In this document: positions 17,448 through 45,948 of the stretch, one piece after another
Layout of the letters: the number at the start of each line of letters is the position of its first letter
Position numbering within the stretch: position 1 is the first letter of the stretch
NCBI RefSeq assembly: GCF_014217875.1
Contig: NZ_CP059060.1
Span: forward strand, 1,798,001-1,862,000
Source: Synechococcus sp. LTW-R
GTDB taxonomy: Bacteria > Cyanobacteriota > Cyanobacteriia > PCC-6307 > Cyanobiaceae
Direction of reading: 5' to 3'
Length of the DNA stretch: 64,000 bases
Position numbers and translations under genes: made by a program
Notes under the pieces: generated by a model
Told to the model about the DNA's origin: nothing
Seen by the model: only the letters and a program-made list of their open reading frames with translations
The model's database searches: none

Positions 17448-17561
17448 TCCGGCCTTGAGAAATCCTTAAGACTGAGGCCGCTTAGCTCAGGTCGCCTGCA
17501 AATGGCTATCGCCAGAAGGGGTCTGAGAGTTAACGTTGCGCTTCTTCACGCTGTGTAGTGC

Positions 17562-30299: not shown

Positions 30300-30872
30300 A
30301 TGAACGTCGACGAACTGCGCGAGGCGATTGCCTCGGACAACCCCGGCAAGGCGCGTCCTGCGCTGGCAAGCCTGGTTCATGCCAGTGCCGAAGAGGCGGA
30401 ACCGCTGCTGCTGTTGGGGCTGGAGCAGAGCGACATGATCTTGCGCCAACTCAGCTGCTCAGGCTTGGGTCACAAGCCCACGGCCGCCGGTTGGGAGCCG
30501 CTGGTACGGACCTTGAAGCACGACTCCGAGGTGGCCGTGCGTGCGGAAGCGGCGAACGCCTTGGTCAGTCACGGTCTGGATCGGGCTTGGCCCTTGCTGC
30601 TGGAGTCGTTTCAGTCCGAGACCGAATGGCTGATTCACTGCAGCATCCTCTCGGCGGTGGCCGAGCACCCTGAGATTGCTCCGGAACAGTTGCTTGAGTT
30701 AGCGCGGCTCGCCGTGGCCGAAGCCGATGGGACGGTGCGCGTCGGCGGCACGGAAATCCTGGGTCGCCTGGTGCGGGAAGGCAGCAGCGAGGCGCGAGAG
30801 GTGCTCCAGGGTCTGCAGCAGGACAGCGATCACCGCGTTGTCGCGGCAGCCTTGAATGGGTTGCAGGGTTAA
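30300..30872 (+). CDS. HEAT-repeat protein
   Basis: This 190-residue all-helical protein is built of four to five HEAT/PBS-lyase-like repeats; VAVRAEAANALVSHG and VRVGGTEILGRLVREGS are typical repeat segments. Cyanobacterial relatives include phycobilin lyase subunits (CpcE) and NblB-like proteins, but the short length and lack of a phycobilisome neighbour leave the role open. It starts 15 nt after the small membrane gene, and its TAA overlaps the kdsD start (TAATG). Confidence 0.78.
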   Translation: MNVDELREAIASDNPGKARPALASLVHASAEEAEPLLLLGLEQSDMILRQLSCSGLGHKPTAAGWEPLVRTLKHDSEVAVRAEAANALVSHGLDRAWPLLLESFQSETEWLIHCSILSAVAEHPEIAPEQLLELARLAVAEADGTVRVGGTEILGRLVREGSSEAREVLQGLQQDSDHRVVAAALNGLQG

Positions 30873-31870
30873 TGACAGAAATCATGTCTGCCTTGACGCG
30901 CTGCCTACAGCAGGAGGCCGCTGCCATCGCCGATACGGCGTCTCGCTTGAGTGTTGAACAAGTCGAGGCAGCGCTCAAGCTGCTGCAGCATTGCAGTGAT
31001 CAGGGCCGCAAGCTGGTGATCAGTGGGGTCGGGAAGAGCGGCATCGTGGCCAGGAAAATTGCCGCGACCTTCTCATCGATTGGCTTAACTGCGATCTATC
31101 TCAATCCCTTGGATGCGCTCCATGGCGACTTAGGGGTTGTCGTTCAAGACGATGTTGTTTTGCTGCTCTCGAACAGCGGTGAAACCGAGGAATTGGTGCA
31201 ACTGCTTCCTCACCTGAAACGCCGGGGTGCGCCGACGATTGCTTTGGTGGGTCGTCTTCAATCCAGCTTGGCTCGTGTCAGTGACGTGGTGCTGGATGGC
31301 TCCGTTGATCGCGAGGTCTGTCCGCTCAATCTGGCACCGACGGCGAGCACCGCTGTGGCTATGGCCATTGGTGATGCCTTGGCAGCGGTCTGGATGGAGC
31401 GCTCGGGGGTGTCGCCTCAGGATTTTGCCCTCAATCACCCGGCTGGCGCGTTGGGTAAGAAGCTCACGCTGACCGCGGCAGATTTGATGGTTCCCGTGGC
31501 CCGCGTGCGGTCATTGGCACCAGCGGCTCCTTTACAAGAGGTCATTGCCGCTTTGACGGATGCCGGTGTGGGCGCCTCATGGGTTGCTAGCCCGCAGGAC
31601 GCCACTCAGCTTGTCGGTTTAATTACGGACGGCGACCTGCGCCGGGCGCTGCAAGAGGCTGGATCTGGGGGTTGGGCCCACTTGCAGGCGTCCGATCTGA
31701 TGACCGTTGATCCGATCACCGTTCCAGCCGCCACTTTGGCTGTTGATGCGATGGAGCTGATGGAGCGCAATCGCCGTAAGGCGATCGCGGTGCTGCCGGT
31801 GGTGGCGGAATCGGGCGAGTTAGAAGGGTTACTGCGATTGCACGATCTCGTTCAAGCTGGGTTGCGTTGA
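30872..31870 (+). CDS. kdsD: Arabinose-5-phosphate isomerase (KpsF/GutQ family)
   Basis: It converts ribulose 5-phosphate to arabinose 5-phosphate, the first step to Kdo. The 332 residues have a SIS domain (about 35-180) with GVGKSGIVARKIAATFSS, LNPLDALHGDLG and SNSGETEELVQLL, then SVCPLNLAPTAST-like CPLNLAPTASTAVAMAIGDALA, NHPAGALGKKL, and a CBS pair (about 205-330). The domain order is exactly that of KdsD/KpsF. It is followed without a gap by kdsC, and kdsB and kdsA lie within 3.5 kb, which strongly supports a Kdo role. Confidence 0.93.
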   Translation: MTEIMSALTRCLQQEAAAIADTASRLSVEQVEAALKLLQHCSDQGRKLVISGVGKSGIVARKIAATFSSIGLTAIYLNPLDALHGDLGVVVQDDVVLLLSNSGETEELVQLLPHLKRRGAPTIALVGRLQSSLARVSDVVLDGSVDREVCPLNLAPTASTAVAMAIGDALAAVWMERSGVSPQDFALNHPAGALGKKLTLTAADLMVPVARVRSLAPAAPLQEVIAALTDAGVGASWVASPQDATQLVGLITDGDLRRALQEAGSGGWAHLQASDLMTVDPITVPAATLAVDAMELMERNRRKAIAVLPVVAESGELEGLLRLHDLVQAGLR

Positions 31871-32424
31871 TGTGGGCTCGATGGCGCTGGAGAGGGCTTA
31901 CGAAGCGCTTGGCAACGATCCAGCTCGTGCTCCTCGATGTGGATGGTGTGCTGACAGATGGTTCCCTCTTCTATGGACCGGAAGGTGAGCTGAGTAAATG
32001 CTTCAATGTGCGAGATGGACTAGGGATCCGCCTGCTTCAGAACGCCGGTATCGAGGTGGCTTTTCTGAGCGGCGGCCGCGGCGGCGCCACAGAAGTGAGG
32101 GCCCAACACCTAGGGATCCGTCACTGCCTTGTTGGTGCAATGGATAAGCCCCATGCTCTGACTGAGCTGTGTCAACGCGTGGGTGTGGGTCCTGAGCAGA
32201 TTGTCTATGTCGGAGACGATCTCAATGATCTGGCCTTACGGGGCAGAGTGGGTTTGTTGATTGCTCCGGCGGATGCCGTACCAGCCTTGCGTCGTCGCGC
32301 TGATGCGGTGCTCATTCGCAAAGGTGGCCATGGAGCGGTGCGAGAGCTCGCTGAACGCTTGTTGAAATCCCGGGGTGAGTGGGAACAGCTCTGCCGGCAG
32401 GGCTGGCGTGATCGCAATGACTGA
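31870..32424 (+). CDS. kdsC: Kdo-8-phosphate phosphatase (HAD family)
   Basis: KdsC removes phosphate from Kdo 8-phosphate. The 184 residues carry the HAD nucleophile motif LVLLDVDGVLTDGSLFY, then KCFNVRDGLGIRLL, the motif 2 Ser in FLSGGRG, and VYVGDDLNDLALRGRVGL, characteristic of the capless KdsC group. I choose the ATG at 31870, which overlaps the kdsD stop by one base. It is convergent with kdsB, seven bases apart, so the plus-strand kdsD-kdsC pair and the minus-strand kdsB unit end against each other. Confidence 0.92.
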   Translation: MWARWRWRGLTKRLATIQLVLLDVDGVLTDGSLFYGPEGELSKCFNVRDGLGIRLLQNAGIEVAFLSGGRGGATEVRAQHLGIRHCLVGAMDKPHALTELCQRVGVGPEQIVYVGDDLNDLALRGRVGLLIAPADAVPALRRRADAVLIRKGGHGAVRELAERLLKSRGEWEQLCRQGWRDRND

Positions 32425-32430
32425 TTGCGA

Positions 32431-33201
32431 TTAGAGCTCTGCCGAAGCGATTACCCTAGCTTGTTCGAGTTGCTCAGCGGTATCAACAGACAGCGATTCG
32501 TCTTCTACTTGAAAGGTGCCGATCTCAATGCCGGCTTCGATCAACCTGAGCTGCTCCAATTTCTCAATCTGCTCAAGCGGTGAATTAGGTAGATCGTTCC
32601 ACTGCTGAAGGACATCTGCCCGGTAGCCGTAGATCCCGACGTGTCCCCAGTAGCTGGCATATTCTCCCCAGTGCTTGGGATCGACCCCGCGCACATGCGG
32701 AATCGCCGAGCGCGAGAAATAGAGGGCCCGACCATCTGCTGCTAACAGGGTCTTCACCACATTGGGATTGTGAATGTTCTTGGCAGACATTCGATACACC
32801 GGTGTTAATACCTCGGGTGTGGGATTCCGATTGATGAAGGCATCAGCCATCGCATCAATCACGCGTGGATCGATGAATGGTTGATCGCCCTGGACGTTGA
32901 TGATCAAGCTCGATTTTGCTGATCCACCCCATTGGCTGATCAATTGCTCGCTTACCGAGGCGATGCGCTCACTGCCTGAGGCGCAGCTGGGGCTTGTGAG
33001 AAGTGCCTCAAAGCCCCAAATTTTGGCTTTTTGTAGCAGTTGGTCGCTGTCGGTGCAGAGCACGACTGCAGAGGGTCTGTTGGCTTTGGCGCAGCGTTCG
33101 AGCACTCGCTGCAGCATCGGCTTGCCGCCAACGTCGGCCAGCACCTTGTTGGGAAGGCGGCTTGATTCCAGGCGAGCTGGAACGGCGACTAGACAATTCA
33201 T
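32431..33201 (-). CDS. kdsB: CMP-Kdo synthetase
   Basis: KdsB activates Kdo with CTP to CMP-Kdo, the donor for Kdo transferases. The 256 residues have the nucleotide-binding PARLESSRLPNKVLADVGGKPML, ERIASVSEQL, the metal-binding NVQGDQPFIDP, and HVGIYGYRADVLQQW near residue 190. All fit the family. Its ATG overlaps the stop of the upstream glycosyltransferase gene, so the two are cotranscribed. Confidence 0.94.
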   Translation of the reverse strand: MNCLVAVPARLESSRLPNKVLADVGGKPMLQRVLERCAKANRPSAVVLCTDSDQLLQKAKIWGFEALLTSPSCASGSERIASVSEQLISQWGGSAKSSLIINVQGDQPFIDPRVIDAMADAFINRNPTPEVLTPVYRMSAKNIHNPNVVKTLLAADGRALYFSRSAIPHVRGVDPKHWGEYASYWGHVGIYGYRADVLQQWNDLPNSPLEQIEKLEQLRLIEAGIEIGTFQVEDESLSVDTAEQLEQARVIASAEL

Positions 33202-33899
33202 TATTCAAACAAGCGGAAGGCTTCATCACGGGCAACAAACCACTCAGCAGCGAGCGTCCCACCCATGGTCCGCTGGGCCTGAAACCAGGGACCTCCGAGG
33301 GTCCAGTGCAGCAGTGATGCTGATTCAGCCTTCGCTGGCTCCTGAACGGCAACCAGGTGGTTCCAGCCATCGGGAAGTGCCCCGATCTCGTGATCCCCGG
33401 CTAGCCAGTGGAAGCGGTGTAACTCGAGGCCGCTGGCGCTGTTGACGTACTCGGGCGTGAGAGCGGCGCAGCGGCTGCAGTTAAGCAGCATCAGAGAGCT
33501 CCAATTTTTTTTCGGGTAGACGCTCTGAACTTCACCGAGAAACTTCGTGGTTTCGCCGGGCACATGCTCGTGCTGAACGCACTGCACGCTGAACTGCTCA
33601 TCGCGCAATGCCCAAAGCTCGGCAATGTCGCCGCGGGCGAGCATGTCGCAGTCCATGAAAATGGCCCAGCCCCGATAGCCCATCAGATGGGGGACCAGAA
33701 AGCGCGTGAAGGAGAAGGCGGTGCTCTGTTTGGGATCACGGGGACGCCAGTAGAGCTGCTGCGCTTCGAGCTGCGGGGTCACGAGCGGCGTGATCGCTAG
33801 GGGCACACTGCTGTGCTGGCTCAGGCTGTCAATCAAGACGTTGGTCGCGGCTCGCTCACGCGGGTCAACGCCAATGAAGATGGGGATAGGCCTGCTCAT
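33201..33899 (-). CDS. Probable glycosyltransferase with DCD motif
   Basis: This 232-residue GT-A-like protein begins PIPIFIGVDPRERAATNVLIDSL and contains AIFMDCDMLA, the metal- and nucleotide-binding DxD region, and later MLLNCSRC and GDHEIGALPDGWNHL, the order seen in GT8-related transferases. Donor and acceptor are unknown. Its gene sits between kdsB and the HIT gene, so it may act on the same glycan, for example on Kdo-containing surface polymer. There is no membrane segment. Confidence 0.75.
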   Translation of the reverse strand: MSRPIPIFIGVDPRERAATNVLIDSLSQHSSVPLAITPLVTPQLEAQQLYWRPRDPKQSTAFSFTRFLVPHLMGYRGWAIFMDCDMLARGDIAELWALRDEQFSVQCVQHEHVPGETTKFLGEVQSVYPKKNWSSLMLLNCSRCAALTPEYVNSASGLELHRFHWLAGDHEIGALPDGWNHLVAVQEPAKAESASLLHWTLGGPWFQAQRTMGGTLAAEWFVARDEAFRLFE

Positions 33900-33908
33900 T
33901 TCTGGAGA

Positions 33909-35215
<1,307 letters not shown>

Positions 35216-35254
35216 GGCATTGAGCTAACTGGCCTTGCTAGGTTGAAGGGGTCA

Positions 35255-36762
<1,508 letters not shown>

Positions 36763-36787
36763 CTCCAGCTCCCTGTTCGAAGCAATC

Positions 36788-36811
36788 AGCCCGGTCGCTA
36801 GCCCGGGCTTT
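36788..36811 (+). terminator. Probable terminator after thiC
   Basis: AGCCCGG (36788-36794) pairs with CCGGGCT (36803-36809), followed by only three Ts. It lies 26 nt after the thiC stop. The short T-run makes it a modest candidate. Confidence 0.6.
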
Positions 36812-36913
36812 ATGGCCAGATCACTGATGTTGCGCACCCTCCATGATGCGGTTAATTATTAAACAAACGTCACGGTGGGGTTGGGTCAATTATTGCGTTG
36901 AGACCGACTGCAG

Positions 36914-37053
36914 AGAGCTTTCGCTTAGGCCGCAACGTTCTTGACAGGGAAGACTCATCTGTCTATTAGGACAAGGCTGAGGACGGAAATTCTGAAGCGG
37001 TCGACGAATACCGTGTCGCCCTCGAGGGCTGTTTGCTCGTGTCAGCGGAAGCC
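36914..37053 (-). pseudogene. tkt: Decayed 3' remnant of a transketolase gene
   Basis: This 140-nt stretch aligns without gaps to the last part of the intact tkt gene (43952-44091); by hand count about 99 of 140 bases agree, including AGAGCTTTCG and GAAGCGGTCG blocks. Read on the minus strand in the tkt frame, EGDTV, VDRF, KNVAA and AKAL are still visible against EGDTV, IDRF, ENVVA and AKAL of Tkt, but the frame has three stops. It is a non-functional scar. The rest of the 376-nt gap (36763-36913 and 37054-37138) holds the thiC terminator and otherwise nothing I can name. Confidence 0.85.
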
Positions 37054-37138: not shown

Positions 37139-38266
37139 CTAACAGATCTGCGATGAGAATTCGTTAATGCAAGCACACACGTACAGCGCTTGCTCAGACG
37201 TAACTGTTGGCCCAATGGGCAAGCTCAGGCAGTTGTCATGGATAAAGTTAGAGACAGGGTACATCTCTGGATCTATGTGTAGTCCGGCATAGGCCTTTTG
37301 TTTGTAAGGAGGCAATGGATAGTGCTTCATTGTCTGTATATTCATTCCACGCAGGTAATCTGAAAGCTGGTCACTAAATGGGCAAAGAATGACAAACAAA
37401 TGCCAGGCATGGTAATATTCACTAATTGGTTTACCGGGCAATCGAATATTGACGCCCTCCTTGATGTTTTGCATATAAACAGATGCAATCATGTTGCGAT
37501 GATTGTTGTCAGCATTTAAATAAGGTAATTTGCAATTCAGAAAAGATGCCTGCAACTCGTCAAGCCTTGAGTTTCTTCCAGGTATATCATTATAATACTT
37601 TAATTCGGAACCATAATTTCTTGTAAGTCTAGCTTTCCTTGCCAAGATGTCGTCATTTGTGCTGATGGCTCCTCCATCACCTAAGCATCCTAGATTCTTT
37701 CCGGGATAGAAGCTGAAAGCCGCCGCATCTCCAAGGTTTCCACATCTAACTCCATTTGCTGATGCGCCATGAGCTTGAGCTGCGTCTTCTAAGATCTTGA
37801 GAGAATATTTATTCGCAATCTGTTTAATCTTGTTCATCTCACAAGGCAGCCCATACAAATGGACAACCAAAATTGCTTTTGTCTTATCAGTAACTCTTTC
37901 CTCAATTCGTTCTGGATCTATATTAAATGTAGATATATCAGGTTCGACGGGAATTGGTACAGCACCAACTCGCGTAATTGCAAGCCACGTAGCAATGTAA
38001 GTGTTGGCAGGCACAATTACTTCATCTCCAGCGCCAATATTCCAGCACTCTAAGACAATCTCCAGTGCATCTAATCCATTGCCAACACCAATACAGTGCT
38101 TAACGCCTAAATAGTTCGCAAAGTTATGCTCAAAACTCTTTAACTCGTCAGATAAAACTATCCATGATTGTTTTAGGAACTTATCAAATGAATCCTTGAA
38201 ATGGCGGTCGAACCGGCGATTGATTGATTCAAGATCTAAGAACTTGATCATGGATTTATCGTACAT
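37139..38266 (-). CDS. DegT/DnrJ/EryC1-family sugar aminotransferase
   Basis: This PLP enzyme transfers an amino group to a keto-sugar nucleotide for surface glycan synthesis. The 375 residues have [25 protein letters not shown], the cofactor Asp in [11 protein letters not shown], the PLP Lys in [16 protein letters not shown] and the [22 protein letters not shown] region. The C-3 versus C-4 aminotransferase type cannot be told by eye. I keep the ATG at 38266, because GGAGAGG stands six bases before it on the minus strand; it overlaps the methyltransferase gene end. Low GC (about 40% in 37921-37980) marks island DNA. Confidence 0.9.
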
Positions 38267-39470
38267 CTAAAACCTCTCCGAAATAACCATTGCTTTTTAA
38301 GTTCTGGCGAACTTCAGAGGGTAAGTGCCATGCTAAGTTCAGAATCTTGCGCTGAGGTGTTTTAAGTTCATATAAATCCTTCTCCGGATAGATTGGAATC
38401 CTTGTCCCTGGAACATAGTAGCCAGTCTTGATCGAACCTTTAATTTCATAGACTGCCGAGATCTTTGATTCATCAAGACCAAGCATCTTTACCAGAATGG
38501 CGGCTCTTCCAGGAAATGCCTTTGCAGGCATTGGGCCGCCCTTAGACACTTCTTCGTCAATCATTTGACTGGTCTTTTTAATCCAATGATCAATATCTGA
38601 GTTCATGCTCTTTAAGCCATCGAAGAAATGATCTTCTTGGATATGTTTGTTATGCTTTGGCATTTGACTTATGTGAACCCTTATGTTTCCGCCATACCTA
38701 CTAACAAACTCAACATCTGATATGTTCATGCCAAGAGACTTGGCGATAAACTCGAATGACTTGTGGCTATATGTTCTAGGATGCTCATGATAAAAGGTGT
38801 CAAACTGCCCCCTTGATATGATATCCCCAAGATAATGATTCTCGATTATAACTATCGTCTTTTCGTTAGAAACGAGCCTCAGATTTGCAATTAATGCTGG
38901 CAAGTCTTCTATGTGCGCAAAAACGTTGGTGAATGTTATAAAGTCAAAGTCGCCAACTGTTCTTTTTAGTTCTGAGGCGACAGAGTCATCAAAATATCTG
39001 TTGACTAAATTGTGGTGGTCCGATGCATCTCGAATTGCGCCAGTTGGGTCTACTCCATAGGTGATGCATCCTTTCTCCCTGAAAATATCTAGCAGGCTTC
39101 CATCGTTGCAGCCAATATCCAGGACTTTCTTGTTTGCTAAGCTTCCGTACCTTTGCTCTGCGCCGTCTACAAGGCCTCGCATACCATCTGTCACGCTCTT
39201 AGTTACTCTTGCGCGATAATGATATTCCTGATTGAACAACGTCTTTTTGTTTACTTGATACCTTTGATGGGCTGTATTGCATTCGCTGCAATATATTATG
39301 TCAATTGGATATTCGATGCATCTTCTCTGTTCTCCAATCTTGACTAGATCATCGCATAAAGGATGCAGTCCCAAATTTAAGGCATCAAAAAGTTGGTCAT
39401 TTCCGCACACTTCGCATGAAGTAACGAAAGCCAGCTTTTCCAATTGGTTAGGTTGATATCCTGTTGACAT
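38256..39470 (-). CDS. Sugar C-methyltransferase-like SAM enzyme
   Basis: This 404-residue, three-part methyltransferase is of the type acting on nucleotide-linked sugars (TylC3-like). An N-terminal zinc module has Cys pairs CEVCGN and YCSECNTAH; the central Rossmann domain has [15 protein letters not shown] and [13 protein letters not shown]; the C-terminal domain ends with [18 protein letters not shown] and [16 protein letters not shown], the signature of this family. Branched-sugar synthesis is expected. The ATG at 39470 is preferred, though a GTG six bases earlier is possible. Upstream, 39477-39684 is AT-rich non-coding DNA where a promoter could lie. Confidence 0.87.
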
Positions 39471-39684
39471 TAGCACGCCAAGCAGATTGATGCTCTAATC
39501 CACTATAGAACACACTGTCATGCGCAGACTAGTATGAAAAAATAATAAACTCTGATTGAACAAGAGTGCAAAGAACAAGCGCTAAATGTTTCTGAGGCCA
39601 TACTCTCGATTCAGATGAGTCAGGCGCATACGAAGAAAGATTGATTACGTGATCTATGCTCTATGCCAATTTGAATCATAACGT

Positions 39685-40176
39685 TCATTGATCTAATAAT
39701 CGGATTACTCTCGCCGGATTCCCTGCAACAACTGTATGCGGAGCGACTGACTTTGTTACAACGCTTCCTGCCCCAACGATAGAGCCCTTTCCAATCTTTA
39801 TACTTGGCAAGATAACAGCTCCCGCACCAATACTGCAACCTTCTTCAACTATTGTCATCTCAGGCTCTTTATATTTTCGGCTTCTCGGGTAAGAGTCGTT
39901 GCAGAATGATACCCCAGGTCCTATGAAAACATCATCCATAATCACAACTCCTAGCCAAAGAGACACTCCTGTCTTGATAGTAACTCGGTTGCCTACAATC
40001 GCTCCACTCTCAACAAAACACCTATCACATATGTTGCAGTCAGCACCAATTATTGCTCCCGACATGATGTTGACGTAAGACCATATGCGCGACCTTTCGC
40101 CGATTTGCAAAGTCTTAATCACAGAGTGACGACCTTTGTAAATACCTTTAAGCCGCAACCGCAAACCTATGAGCAT
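39685..40176 (-). CDS. Left-handed beta-helix acyltransferase
   Basis: This 163-residue hexapeptide-repeat acetyltransferase shows repeats through SRIWSYVNIMSGAIIGADCNI split over several turns, VFIGPGVSFCND, CSIGAGAVILPSIKIGKG, and the C-terminal tail VVAGNPARVIR. The best fit is N-acetylation of an amino sugar such as dTDP-3-amino-3,6-dideoxyhexose (FdtC/QdtC type), which would use the product of the neighbouring aminotransferase; no matching ketoisomerase is present here. The start is uncertain. The next gene begins 31 nt away on the other strand. Confidence 0.82.
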   Translation of the reverse strand: MLIGLRLRLKGIYKGRHSVIKTLQIGERSRIWSYVNIMSGAIIGADCNICDRCFVESGAIVGNRVTIKTGVSLWLGVVIMDDVFIGPGVSFCNDSYPRSRKYKEPEMTIVEEGCSIGAGAVILPSIKIGKGSIVGAGSVVTKSVAPHTVVAGNPARVIRLLDQ

Positions 40177-40207: not shown

Positions 40208-41527
40208 ATGGATCAGGCCAATGCAATAAAGCTGCTGTCAGAAGGCAAAATGAGCACGCTCTGCTTGGAGTTGATGGACTATGACTATGATCTTTATGCT
40301 CAGGTAAAAGAGAACGAAGGACAATATAGCTATCTTAAATACCAAGCCACGATAGAGTCGACTGTTGAAAACTATCTATACACTAGACTTGGTGGGTCAG
40401 CAGAACCTGCGGCTACTTCGTTAGCAAATAATCGTCTAAATACACAAGCTTCTGACAAATCAAAGTATTTCGGAAAAACAATAATCCTCTTGCATAACCC
40501 AAGTATAGACGCGCATGTCACGGTGCTTGTGTCTATGCAGAAGGCTTTTTTTGATGTGTTCAATCCGGACGACCTATATATAGCCGTCTTGTATAAATAC
40601 ACTGACTATACTCCATGGAAGGATCTGATTGAACTTCGAGGATTTACTTGCATTCCTCAACATGATGGTAATGCAGTTGAAATGCTGGCAGAATTACGTG
40701 ACGTCTACCGACCTAAGCAATACATATGGTGGGGGCCTCCCGTCTACCAATGGCTTGGCCCTTTAATTGATCCAGGCGCCATTCATCGGAGCGTGAGCTT
40801 TAAATATGATATCCCTCAGTCGCCGCGCTTCAATTCACACCATATTGGCTATGGAAAAAACTATGCATGCAAAATCAGTTCGGAAGTTCCAATTTATGGC
40901 TTCCACCAGCCAATTACTCGTTCATCGATTCCAGATATTTCACCTTTCCAGCTTCAAGAAGCAGCATTTCAGTCTGAAATGTCTTTGAGAAACAATCCGC
41001 TGAAAACACGATCCAGAATAAATATTGGTGTAATTGGACGAGCCGAAAAAATCGCTCAGCCAAGCTATCTAGATTCAATTGTGCAAATACTTCGTCAAGA
41101 TAATAGGCTTATCTTTCACTGGACAGGACAGCACGAACGCGAAATATCGACCTATTTTGAAAATCATGGCCTGGGACATAGACATCAGTTTCATGGTTGG
41201 GTCTGTTCCTACGACTTTCTTTGTGAACTCGATATCTATCTAGATACTTTTCCTTTTGGCACTGGTCAAAGCCTTGCGCTGGCTGGGTATATGGGAAAGC
41301 CGATCATTTCCATGGTCTCACCTTATGAAGCTAGCTTCACTAATCTCTTCAACTCCTTTCTGGTGGAGCTGCTTACAGTGAAGTCAGCCAAAGACTATGT
41401 AGCTCGCGTTCTTGACATATGCGCCCAAAAGCATGAAGTGCCCAATGGTCTTGAATTGCACGATCAATTTAGCTTATGCTTCGATGATCAATCCCTGATT
41501 GATCTCCCGGCTCAACTTGCTCTGTAA
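40208..41527 (+). CDS. Glycosyltransferase-like protein, specificity unknown
   Basis: This is a 439-residue protein that I cannot place firmly. The N-terminal 200 residues have no recognisable motif. The C-terminal half resembles a GT-B transferase of the GT41/GT4 kind: INIGVIGRAEKIAQPSYLD, then IFHWTGQHEREI, QFHGWVCSYDFLCELDIYLDT and PFGTGQSLALAGYMGKPII, where small residues would bind the donor phosphate. No signal peptide or membrane helix is seen. It is translationally coupled (TAATG) to the next gene, so the two likely act together. It is AT-rich (about 40% GC in 41041-41100). Confidence 0.65.
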   Translation: MDQANAIKLLSEGKMSTLCLELMDYDYDLYAQVKENEGQYSYLKYQATIESTVENYLYTRLGGSAEPAATSLANNRLNTQASDKSKYFGKTIILLHNPSIDAHVTVLVSMQKAFFDVFNPDDLYIAVLYKYTDYTPWKDLIELRGFTCIPQHDGNAVEMLAELRDVYRPKQYIWWGPPVYQWLGPLIDPGAIHRSVSFKYDIPQSPRFNSHHIGYGKNYACKISSEVPIYGFHQPITRSSIPDISPFQLQEAAFQSEMSLRNNPLKTRSRINIGVIGRAEKIAQPSYLDSIVQILRQDNRLIFHWTGQHEREISTYFENHGLGHRHQFHGWVCSYDFLCELDIYLDTFPFGTGQSLALAGYMGKPIISMVSPYEASFTNLFNSFLVELLTVKSAKDYVARVLDICAQKHEVPNGLELHDQFSLCFDDQSLIDLPAQLAL

Positions 41528-42297
41528 TGGCCTTTAACGGACACTTCTTGACCATTGTTAAAACATATATTGACTTGATCAACAGTAGAAATGAACCAAT
41601 GCATCCAACGCGTGCGCTTTTTAGCGTAGGCTTTCCTGACATCATTTCCAAACAAGGTTCCCTCGATTGTCACCTCGAACAGAACTTAAAACCCTTTGAG
41701 ACTCATAGCCCAGAAACTCTTAGGTGGCATGGTCTTCCTGATGATAATCTATATACCACTTTCAGCATGCCAAAATTTTGTGCCAGTGAAGGATGGGATT
41801 TTCAATACCTAGACATTGCCCCGGGCACCGGTGACAACTCTTCATCATTTCATCAGCTCGATCTTAATCATGACCTAGATCCGTCTTTGTACTCATCTTG
41901 TGACATACTAATTGATAGCGGCACTGCTGAGCACTGCTTTAATATAGGGAAGGTATTCGAAAACTACTTCCATATACTTCGACCTGGAGGCTTTGTGTTG
42001 CAATATATTCCCTTCTTGTCGCCGAATCATGGATTCTGGAGCGCCAATCCAACTGTTTTTTATGACTTAGCAAGCTGTAATCCAATCAAGGTCTTCTTGT
42101 GTGAAATGCAGTCATTTGCCAGCTATAGAGACTATTTCTCGGGCAACTATCACCGCATCTCGTTTTCCCCTGTCAATAGGTTTGTATTGCCTTCTGATCT
42201 AAGCCTTGATCTGACAGTGCTCATATTTGCTGTATATAAAAAGTACAAAAAAAGTCCTTTTAAGTATCCTATGCAGGCCAAATATCGCTCACAGTAA
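41527..42297 (+). CDS. Methyltransferase-like protein
   Basis: This 256-residue protein has a weak class I SAM-methyltransferase pattern: DFQYLDIAPGTGDNSSSF would be motif I, ILIDSGTAEHCFNIGKVFENYFHILRP split by position gives the motif IV and post-motif region, and GGFVLQYIPFL follows. The glycine-rich loop is atypical, so binding of SAM is uncertain. Its ATG overlaps the stop of the upstream GT-like gene. It could modify the sugar added by that protein. A 310-nt stretch after it (42298-42607) has no recognised feature apart from the uncertain start region of the next gene. Confidence 0.6.
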   Translation: MAFNGHFLTIVKTYIDLINSRNEPMHPTRALFSVGFPDIISKQGSLDCHLEQNLKPFETHSPETLRWHGLPDDNLYTTFSMPKFCASEGWDFQYLDIAPGTGDNSSSFHQLDLNHDLDPSLYSSCDILIDSGTAEHCFNIGKVFENYFHILRPGGFVLQYIPFLSPNHGFWSANPTVFYDLASCNPIKVFLCEMQSFASYRDYFSGNYHRISFSPVNRFVLPSDLSLDLTVLIFAVYKKYKKSPFKYPMQAKYRSQ

Positions 42298-42607
42298 GCC
42301 GGTTGGCCGCCTCGCTTGTGCAAAGAATGCTCCATCTCATTTTCAGAGCCTAATTCCTTTGCTGATATGTCTAGCCTTTGCGTTAAGCAAGCCTTGGCTT
42401 TTCTCTGGCTAGCCACTTGGAAGGACGCGAGTCGATCAACTAATTAGACCCTGACTCGCTGCTTACCCCTTAATTGCTAACGATTCTTTGGTTGCCTGAT
42501 GGCATTACGTTCTTAGCCTTCTCACAGAAATGCTCCCTTAGCACGGAAGTGAATGATAGCTACTACGTATGTCTGCTATGATTTGCTTACTCTCTGGTTT
42601 TGTTGGC

Positions 42608-43192
42608 ATGAGTGTTATTACAGATGCATACCGCATAGAGCAGAAAGCATTACATGAAAATCCCTTCTATGGAGTTGCCTCCAAGCATTACGCCCCACTT
42701 GTAAGTGAGATAATAAAAAAGCTAGGTATATCGTCACTGACTGATTATGGTGCCGGGAAGAAAAGGCTTTTTCAGTCCTTAGTTGATATCGGTATTGACC
42801 TTAAAGAATACAATCCATATGATCCAGCTTTTCCTGAGTACGGCAAACCAATGCCCGCGCAGCTGGTCTGTTGTATAGATGTGCTTGAACACGTTGAACT
42901 GGACTGCTTGGACGACGTGTTATCTGAAATTCATGCAAATATGCAAAACTACTGCTTCTTGACTGTTCACACGGGGCCAGCAATGAAGCATCTCTCTGAT
43001 GGCCGCAATGCTCATATCACTCAGGCACCATCATCATGGTGGCTTAAAAAGCTTACAGACTATTTCGAAGTTCTACAGCTTCAAACCACTACTAAGTTTG
43101 GAAAAGGTTTTTGGATAATAGGGAGCAAGAAGAATGGAGCGCTGAAGGTAAACTCGCATGAAAAGTTCAACGCCCCAGCTGCCACGAAATAA
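42608..43192 (+). CDS. Small SAM methyltransferase-like protein
   Basis: This 194-residue protein begins AYRIEQKALHENPFYGVASK, typical of a small group of class I methyltransferase-like proteins found in surface-glycan and phage clusters. LTDYGAGKKRLFQSLVD takes the place of motif I, and CCIDVLEHVELDCLDDVLSEI that of motifs IV-V. I use the ATG at 42608, because the extra 13 residues from an upstream ATG at 42569 are hydrophobic and unlike the family. The substrate is unknown. It is the last island gene before a long gap. Confidence 0.7.
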   Translation: MSVITDAYRIEQKALHENPFYGVASKHYAPLVSEIIKKLGISSLTDYGAGKKRLFQSLVDIGIDLKEYNPYDPAFPEYGKPMPAQLVCCIDVLEHVELDCLDDVLSEIHANMQNYCFLTVHTGPAMKHLSDGRNAHITQAPSSWWLKKLTDYFEVLQLQTTTKFGKGFWIIGSKKNGALKVNSHEKFNAPAATK

Positions 43193-43888
43193 CTCCTACA
43201 AAGCAATTGTGCCTTTCTGGTATTGATTGATGGTCTTCATGCTTACTGTTCAAACTGTGTGGAGATTACCCGTATAACATATCGGAAAGTGTTTCTTTGG
43301 GTTTGGATTTGTGCGTTCTCTTGAGGCGGCTTTTATCGGCCTTTGCGTTTTAGTATGACTGGAGATTTCAGTCCTTTCGAGATCTACGCGGGTTCATCCG
43401 CTGTCGCGGTTGTAGCTTTCTTGTGCTACAGATAAACATGCTGAATTCACCTCTCTAGAATTAATTTCCTTGTAGCCCATAGGAAGCTTGTAGGAGGTCA
43501 GTCTCGGCGTCTCGCTTGACGAATATAGCGTAAAGACTGACCATGAAAAGTTCGGCAAATATGTTTTCAGGAGGTAGATGCAACTTGTATGCTTGCTTTA
43601 TTGGGGGCTGATACTTTCTACGATTAGCCCTAGACCTTCGCGGAGATTGTACTCTGGCTCTATTTATGCTGGTGATCGACGTCTTTTAGGCATGAAACGT
43701 AGCATTCCCTCTTTGTCGTGAGAGTGTTCTGTGGGCCTTTTGGCAATATAGCGTGCAAGGTCTGGCTGAAATATAGAATCACCTCCGCATATCATAAGTA
43801 CCTCTTTGAAAGAGTGTGCCGGGCATTGCTCCGGGGCTTTTATTCCGGACCATCGATGTCTTGCAGCACAGGTGCGGTTGAATTTCCC
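43193..43888. other. Long non-coding stretch at the right edge of the island
   Basis: Nearly 700 nt with stops in all frames and intermediate GC. On the minus strand, a short frame ending at 43664 contains MICGGDSIFQPDLARYIAKR, which looks coding but has no recognisable family; it may be the tail of a lost gene. GACTG/CAGTC at about 43357-43372 forms a small hairpin. No transposase, tRNA or integrase fragment was identified. It most likely holds debris of island genes. Confidence 0.5.
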
Positions 43889-43915
43889 AAAAAAAGCCCC
43901 GCCAATAGCGGGGCT
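43889..43915 (-). terminator. Terminator of the transketolase gene
   Basis: On the minus strand, an eight-base stem (43908-43915 with 43895-43902; AGCCCCGC / GCGGGGCT) is followed by a run of Ts opposite the seven As at 43889-43895. It lies about 30 nt beyond the tkt stop. It sets the boundary between core DNA and island. Confidence 0.9.
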
Positions 43916-43944
43916 TGAGGGCATCAACGTGTTGATCTAGTTGA

Positions 43945-45948
43945 TCATCCCAGAGCTTTCGCTTTGGCCACCACGTTCTCGACGGTGAAGCCGAACTTCT
44001 CCATGAGCAGAGGGCCAGGTGCGGAAGCACCGAAGCGGTCGATGGAGACGGTATCGCCTTCGAAGCCGGTGTACTTGTGCCAGCCGAAGCTGCTGGAGGC
44101 TTCGACCACTAGGCGCTTGCGGCAAGCGGCGGGAAGCACGCTCTCGCGGTAGGCGGCGTCCTGTTCTTCGAATAGGTCCACGCAGGGCATGGAGACGACG
44201 CGGACGTTCTTGCCTTCAGCGCGCAGCTGGGCGGCGGCCTTGACGCAGAGGTCGAGCTCGGTGCCGGTGCCGATCAGGATCAGGTCAGGGGTGCCGTTGC
44301 TGTCCTCAAGGATGTAGCCACCCTTGGCCACGTGGTCAGCGTTGGAGTTGCCCTGGTTGGCCATCGCCTGACGGCTGAGGAACAGCACGGTGGGGCGGTG
44401 GCGGTTCGCCACAGCCACCTTGTAGGCACCGCTGGTTTCGTTGCCATCTCCAGGGCGGATCACCAGCATGTTCGGGATCGAACGCAGGCTGGCCAGGGTC
44501 TCGATCGGCTGGTGGGTGGGGCCGTCTTCACCCAGACCGATGGAGTCGTGGGTCAGGACGTAGATCACACCCAGTTCGCTCAGGGCGGATAGGCGCATGG
44601 CGCCCACCATGTAGCCAGCAAACACGCAGAAGGTGCCGCCGTAGGGAACCAGGCCGCTGCCGTGATAGGCGAGGCCGTTCAGGATCGCGCCCATGGCGTG
44701 CTCGCGCACACCGAAGTGCAGGTAGCGGTTGCCCTCGGCACCTTTCTGGAAACCGGACTCACCCTTGATGTCCGTCAGGTTGGAGTGGGTCAGGTCGGCG
44801 GAGCCACCGATCAGCTCGGGCAGGTTGGGGCCGATGGCATTCAGGCAGTTGTAGGAATGCATCCGGGTGGCCACGCCCTTGTCGTCAGGGGTGTAGCTGG
44901 GCAGGTTCGCGTCCCATCCCTGGGGCAGCTCACCGCGCAGTTGACGCTCGAACTGAGCGGCTTCGGTGGGGTACTTGCTGCGGTAGTCAGCCAGGGTGGC
45001 GTTCCAGGCGGCTTCGGCGGCGGCGCCACGCTCGATGGCCTTGCGCCACTGGTCGTAGGACTCCTGGGGAACTTCGAATTCGCCGTAGTTCCAACCCAGG
45101 TTCTGGCGGGTCGCGGCGGCTTCGTCAGCACCCAGAGCAGCGCCGTGCACACCGGCGGTGTTGGCCTTGTTAGGGGAGCCGTAACCGATGGTGGTGGTCA
45201 CCTTGATCATCGAAGGACGATCGGTGACGGCCTTGGCCTCTTCAATCGCCTTGGCAATCGCGCCAAGGTCGGTGTTGCCGTCGGCGACGTGGATCGTGTG
45301 CCAGCCGTAGGCCTCGTAGCGCTTCAGCACATCTTCGGTGAAGGAAACGTTGGTGTTTCCGTCGATCGTGATGTGGTTGTCGTCGTAGAGCGCGATCAGC
45401 TTGCCCAGGCCCAGGTGACCGGCCAGGGAAGCGGCCTCACCGCTGACACCCTCCTGGTGGCAGCCGTCGCCCATGATCACGTAGGTGGTGTGATCAACGA
45501 GCTTGCAATCAGGCTTGTTGAACTTGGCCGCGAGGTGTGCCTCGGCCATGGCCAGGCCGACGGCGTTGGCGATGCCCTGACCCAGAGGACCGGTTGTGAC
45601 TTCGACGCCGGCGGTCTCGAAGGTTTCGGGGTGACCAGGGGTCTTGGAGCCCCACTGGCGGAATTGCTTGATGTCCTCGATCGTGACCGAGTCGTAGCCG
45701 CTCAGGTGCAGCAGCGCGTACAGCAGCATGCAGCCGTGGCCGGCGGACAGCACGAAGCGGTCACGGTTGAACCACTTCGGGTTCTTCGGGTTGTGCTGGA
45801 GGAACTTGTCCCACAGGGTGTAGGCCATGGGAGCGCAACCCATGGGCAGGCCGGGGTGACCGGAGTTGCTCTTGTTGATCGCGTCGACGGCCAGGAAGCG
45901 AATGCTGTTGACGCAAAGCGTGTCGACGGAAGCGGGAGCGACGACCAT
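43945..45948 (-). CDS. tkt: Transketolase
   Basis: Transketolase moves two-carbon units between sugar phosphates in the Calvin cycle and pentose phosphate pathway. The 667 residues have [33 protein letters not shown], the TPP/Mg motif MGDGCHQEG with ALYDDN following, and the pyrimidine-domain region [19 protein letters not shown]. Length is normal. A decayed copy of its 3' end lies at 36914-37053, beyond the island, so this locus has been rearranged. It is transcribed towards the island with fabF upstream. Confidence 0.97.

Follow-up and report, generated by a model that had tools for sequence, protein, structure and literature searches.

A duplicated transketolase end and intergenic spacer flank a surface-glycan island at the variable thiC-tkt junction of Synechococcus sp. 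LTW-R

In the genome of Synechococcus sp. LTW-R (G000; complete, 2.416 Mb), a freshwater-type cyanobacterium, a decayed copy of the last part of the transketolase gene tkt lies beside thiC, and an island of surface-glycan genes separates it from the intact tkt. Not only the tkt end, but also the spacer between the two core genes is present on both sides of this island. The window, i.e. the whole stretch of DNA that was analysed, comprises 64,000 nucleotides, and its features are listed in Table 1. In picocyanobacteria, thiC and tkt are convergent core genes, and what is inserted between them varies. The locus was compared with those of other genomes, above all with G020 and G023, the closest complete relatives. 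Altogether, it is probable that gene blocks swap at this junction by recombination at the flanking core genes, without the help of a phage or transposon, and that such an event, of the additive kind, produced the structure found in LTW-R.

The earlier note had counted by hand a gapless match of about 99 bases between the 140 nt at 36914-37053 and the end of the intact tkt at 43952-44091. The ungapped comparison gave exactly 99/140 matches, far above chance, while the runner-up among all 140-base positions of the window on either strand reached 63. In the frame of tkt the scar reads GFR*HEQTALEGDTVFVDRFRISVLSLVLIDR*VFPVKNVAA*AKA (asterisks mark stops) and aligns to 46 residues of the intact protein. 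The three in-frame stops described before are present, and EGDTV, DRF, NV and AKA are conserved. A DNA profile of the tkt 3' end detected the scar with an E value of 6.9e-13, while the reversed controls remained empty, and the scar is oriented as the resident tkt. A chance similarity or a conserved motif in place of a gene remnant, for which the short length and the identity of 71% could be cited and nothing else, has practically no probability left: it is refuted by the distance to the runner-up, the profile E value and the empty reversed control, and it is also contradicted by the correct order, orientation and spacing of the scar after thiC.

The duplication of the tkt end claimed earlier is real, but its extent was underestimated. 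With about double the length of the scar, the duplicated unit includes the whole ancestral thiC-tkt spacer with both terminators, which is also present twice. In G023, taken as reference, this spacer comprises 164 bp and holds two terminators. Compared to it, the left copy showed 101/149 matches (score 88, shuffle maximum 35) and the right copy 114/165 (score 108, shuffle maximum 34), and both flanks of the island align to the G023 spacer starting at its first bases. As one and the same G023 spacer is the counterpart of both sides, positions 17449-17509 of the G023 locus (L060) were covered in BLAST by both ends of the window. On the left, colinearity with G023 extends from thiC via the spacer through the scar up to its inner end, over 1,834 bp at 88%. 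Since both flanks align to the same spacer and the left side is colinear, the order of the locus is thiC-spacer-tkt'-glycan genes-spacer-tkt. At the right side of the island no thiC coding remnant was detected, either with the thiC 3' profile or in the spacer alignment. In a very close relative, G018, contig C123 (L080) ends at tkt codon 617, adjoining the position of the inner end of the LTW-R scar, perhaps because the assembly broke at a repeat.

Table 1. Features of the thiC-tkt locus of Synechococcus sp. LTW-R (positions in the window).
Feature	Position	Strand	Evidence
TPP riboswitch of thiC	35247-35344		Rfam
thiC, left core flank	35329..36762	+	protein identity 98-99% in G020, G023
Left spacer copy; thiC terminator kept (36787-36815), tkt terminator copy decayed	36764..36901	.	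G023 alignment, folding
tkt' scar, decayed last ~46 codons of tkt	36914..37053	-	99/140, three stops, profile
DegT/DnrJ/EryC1 sugar aminotransferase	37139..38266	-	PF01041, E 7.9e-106
Sugar C-methyltransferase type, Methyltransf_13/23/14 architecture	38256..39476	-	PF08421, PF13489, PF08484
Hexapeptide acyltransferase	39685..40176	-	PF00132, E 1.8e-20
439-aa protein, putative glycosyltransferase by eye	40208..41527	+	no Pfam or NCBIfam match
256-aa protein, methyltransferase-like by eye	41527..42297	+	no Pfam/NCBIfam match; weak relative in G190 island
207-aa protein, methyltransferase-like by eye	42569..43192	+	no Pfam/NCBIfam match
Right spacer copy; tkt terminator kept (43889-43917), thiC terminator copy (43816-43844) partly decayed	43789..43947	.	
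Intact tkt, 667 aa, right core flank; 43952-44091 is the scar counterpart	43945..45948	-	

The mismatches between scar and tkt were distributed over the three codon positions with 13/47, 10/47 and 18/46. This is the pattern expected for a pseudogene opposite a functional copy and points to neutral decay. The divergence at codon positions one and two was about 0.25, or 0.30 after correction, compared to about 0.13 to 0.28, depending on the gene, for half of the fourfold-site distance between LTW-R and G023. By this rough estimate, the age of the scar would approximately equal that of the split from G023 or exceed it somewhat. For the tkt terminator, folding yielded 0.0 kcal/mol in the left copy and -18.4 kcal/mol in the right one, while the thiC terminator showed -14.1 kcal/mol on the left and -11.6 kcal/mol on the right. 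Judged by these energies, the redundant terminators have decayed reciprocally in the two spacer copies.

The cargo between scar and intact tkt consists of six genes with a GC content of about 43%, compared to about 62% in the flanks. For the 439-aa protein, a probable glycosyltransferase, weak relatives are encoded at the same junction by the glycan islands of G124 and G220. Five of the cargo proteins were compared with a defence library and gave zero matches. Elsewhere in the genus the cargo DNA was not found, save for a 236-bp stretch at 66% in G016, and the approximately 600 bp of non-coding DNA from the last cargo gene to the right spacer copy (43193-43788) were similar to none of the compared loci. 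On the other side of thiC, a Kdo cassette (window 30867-35231) comprising an SIS/CBS isomerase, KdsC, KdsB, a GT8-like gene, a 159-aa gene lacking a family match and KdsA sits between a HEAT-repeat gene and the thiC riboswitch; it is exactly absent from G020 and G023. Toward this cassette the identity between LTW-R and G023 drops from 92% to 84%. With the Kdo cassette and the thiC-tkt island, variable surface genes therefore flank thiC on both sides.

The coordinates of tkt and thiC were surveyed in 112 picocyanobacterial genomes carrying both genes on one contig. As stated in the earlier note, the two genes are neighbours in related picocyanobacteria, lying convergently in 109 of the 112. The gap between them ranges from 65 bp to 34,688 bp, with at most 400 bp in 41 genomes, 400-1000 bp in 8, 1-5 kb in 27, 5-10 kb in 12 and more than 10 kb in 21, so that 60/109 intervals exceed 1 kb. 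The expectation that the junction is empty in some strains and holds other cassettes in others was borne out by these gaps and by their varied content. In G020 and G023, whose tkt shows 94% DNA identity to that of LTW-R over the gene, 140-164 bp lie between thiC and tkt, with neither island nor scar, and no island-free strain with the remnant was found. Close pairs differ strongly: the gap is 183 bp in G024 and 22,885 bp in G015, though their tkt ends are 96.6% identical. On the control side, the distance between fabF and tkt amounted to 46-181 bp in 40/40 named loci. Most Prochlorococcus among these loci showed a tkt-thiC spacing of 9-44 bp, and the site is therefore empty in them. Representative island proteins were chiefly nucleotide-sugar epimerases/dehydratases, methyltransferases and glycosyltransferases, with KatG and a vapBC-like pair as exceptions judged by eye; transposase core domains were matched by 3/123 of them.

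The scar of LTW-R is not the only one. When 582 kb of interval interiors from 74 genomes were searched with DNA profiles for the 3' ends of tkt and thiC, tkt scars were detected in G008 (2e-38), G253 (4e-35), G168 (4.5e-14) and, weakly, in G135 (3e-4), besides LTW-R itself. All five lie on the strand of the resident tkt, and reversed controls gave nothing. A thiC scar was found in G008 only. Among the islands longer than 1 kb, 5/60 have a tkt scar and 55/60 none that is detectable; scars are therefore a by-product rather than the rule. The genes between scar and tkt, named by eye, include a GtrII-like glucosyltransferase in G253, a GT2-type glycosyltransferase in G135 and KatG in G168. In trees, the short scars formed long branches, and most AU tests did not discriminate between their possible placements; rejected were a grouping of the G253 scar with its own tkt (p 0.019) and of the LTW-R scar with G024 (p 0.045). 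The proposal that a donor segment with glycan genes and a tkt end recombined at tkt is borne out in so far as the site is variable and four more genomes carry tkt 3' scars. A donor tract at the intact tkt end of LTW-R was not seen: this part of the gene is 93-97% identical to G023 and G020 through to its last bases and is not visibly foreign.

In G008, the arrangement can be read in blocks. By eye, the order is tkt, an AllA-like gene, thiC', tkt', a vapBC-like pair and functional thiC. Compared to G013, the side comprising tkt, the AllA-like gene and thiC' showed 94.9% identity over 2,647 bp and the flanking DNA 94-97%, while past the thiC' break the values decreased to 86-90% for thiC and 76-85% for the HEAT-repeat gene, before the identity returned to 94-96% about 8.7 kb further on. 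This block of about 8.7 kb (L064 2711-11400) contains the tkt 3' fragment, the vapBC-like pair, functional thiC, the HEAT-repeat gene and Kdo genes; the latter are absent from the G013 locus and lie on the opposite side of the HEAT-repeat gene compared to LTW-R. The thiC' piece matches G013 at 91/95 positions and the functional thiC of its own genome at 81/95. Since the tree of this short piece, which carries an internal deletion, did not reject a grouping with its own thiC, it is the block-wise identity profile that carries the inference of an import. On the simplest reading of these sequences, a chromosomal block of another lineage, ending in a tkt fragment, would have entered G008, joined by homology on the far side and irregularly at the broken native thiC.

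The following course would account for these findings. Gene blocks, mostly for surface glycans, would enter and leave the junction as chromosomal DNA of related picocyanobacteria recombines with the flanking core genes. Usually, both ends would be resolved by homology and no trace would remain. Occasionally, one end may be joined without proper homology, or a circular piece may integrate via one crossover, and in either case a core-gene end would be left duplicated. For LTW-R, an additive event would have placed thiC-spacer-tkt' on the left and spacer-tkt on the right with the glycan genes in the middle, after which the redundant halves would have decayed, tkt' becoming a pseudogene, the left tkt terminator being lost and the right thiC terminator weakened. 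The duplication, the island, the empty site of relatives, the variability of the junction, the recurring scars and a foreign block in G008 are observed; that the same process acted in LTW-R is an inference, and either of its two copies may be the newcomer.

Two other origins have to be weighed against recombination at the core genes. Unequal crossing over could have doubled the spacer and the tkt 3' end within the lineage, the glycan genes having entered later by any route. Such an internal tandem duplication requires no donor carrying the junction, and it agrees with flanks that look native, G023 being the best match for either spacer copy and the intact tkt end being free of a foreign tract. 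We nevertheless regard it as rather unlikely, as no relative was found that has the duplication but lacks the cargo, the sides of G008 differ in allele lineage and cassette, unlike in a plain duplication, and the recurrence of scars at a variable site in distant genera would be left unexplained.

Far less probable still is a site-specific integration at the tkt 3' end, in which the incoming phage or satellite would make the end of the gene complete again. In E. coli, prophage e14 integrates at icd and leaves a displaced core-gene 3' end, for which it needs an integrase and short att sites. A displaced gene end in direct orientation would be left in this way as well, and in the aligned stretches of tkt only about 5 nt separate the inner end of the LTW-R scar (window 37053) from that of the G253 scar (L254), a nearness that may be coincidence; the scars of G168 and G008, however, have their inner ends at other tkt positions. 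Moreover, the duplicated unit is the whole spacer including the thiC terminator, which is not expected of an att site, and among the matches listed for tyrosine recombinases (47 genomes) and serine recombinases (27 genomes), none lies inside a thiC-tkt interval. The tkt end was found on neither phage records nor viral contigs, and plasmid matches to it were just ordinary enterobacterial tkt genes; carriage by phage or plasmid was rejected on these searches. The interval of LTW-R also contains no tRNA. The idea of tkt as an entry point that needs neither tRNA nor integrase is supported as a property of the site.

Regarding the uptake of DNA, ComEC was present in 7/7 genomes tested and DprA in the other 6/7, LTW-R being the one without it; G020 and G023 have intact comEC and dprA. 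In LTW-R, comEC is split by a frameshift near codon 415 (G000:C1:1215500-1219000, L253), possibly a sequencing error. These gene contents suggest a recent loss of natural competence. If frameshift and dprA absence are correct, LTW-R would have lost the capacity for transformation by this route, in keeping with an old event.

The exchange of replacement flexible genomic islands by homologous recombination has been inferred from SNP peaks at their borders (Lopez-Perez et al. 2014, PMC4033161); the authors report no clear illegitimate hallmarks, and duplications or remnants are unmentioned in the text. The thiC-tkt islands resemble these islands in the same core-gene position, the differing surface-glycan content and the missing integrase hallmark. 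The core neighbours are the same across strains (109/112 convergent) with variable content, and the differing genes are of similar surface function. In contrast, an island is not present in all strains, and since many sites are empty (the 41/109 intervals of at most 400 bp), the locus is additive as well as replacement. A further difference is that duplicated core-gene ends mark some of the thiC-tkt events. A rise in nucleotide differences at the border is absent at tkt of LTW-R, present beside the Kdo cassette, and represented in G008 by the foreign block. Homology-facilitated illegitimate recombination is known from laboratory transformation and conjugation (e.g. PMC3240628). With homology at one end and an illegitimate join at the other, the arrangement of G008 would result and that of LTW-R can result, but compared to the laboratory process, the one considered here is deduced from natural genomes alone, and LTW-R equally fits the integration of a circle by a single crossover.

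In two studies (Dufresne et al. 2008, PMC2441476; Dore et al. 2020, PMC7522525), islands of marine Synechococcus and Prochlorococcus are likewise rich in acquired genes, some of the islands carry glycosyltransferases, and common core flanks serve to recognise them, as is the case for the thiC-tkt islands. The main texts of both studies mention neither thiC nor transketolase, and no paper was found that joins genomic island, Synechococcus, transketolase and homologous recombination. Since the exchange of surface islands at core flanks is already published (PMC4033161), and thiC-tkt is absent from the main texts searched, the thiC-tkt junction with its core-gene scars is a new instance of a known exchange.

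Only tentatively can a wider reading be put forward, in which picocyanobacteria other than the streamlined Prochlorococcus may have at tkt-thiC a standing site of cassette exchange, imports would regularly be joined by homology at one end and illegitimately at the other, and decayed core-gene ends would record past glycan exchanges made without mobile-element machinery. As a rule, subtle SNP peaks are the basis on which the movement of integrase-free glycan islands is deduced. Core-gene ends that are duplicated, with terminators that have decayed, trace such events directly and physically; any genome set can be screened for them, and here they point to one defined junction. In consequence, the mechanism and the rate of surface-antigen exchange, which is relevant to phage resistance, become testable in this group.
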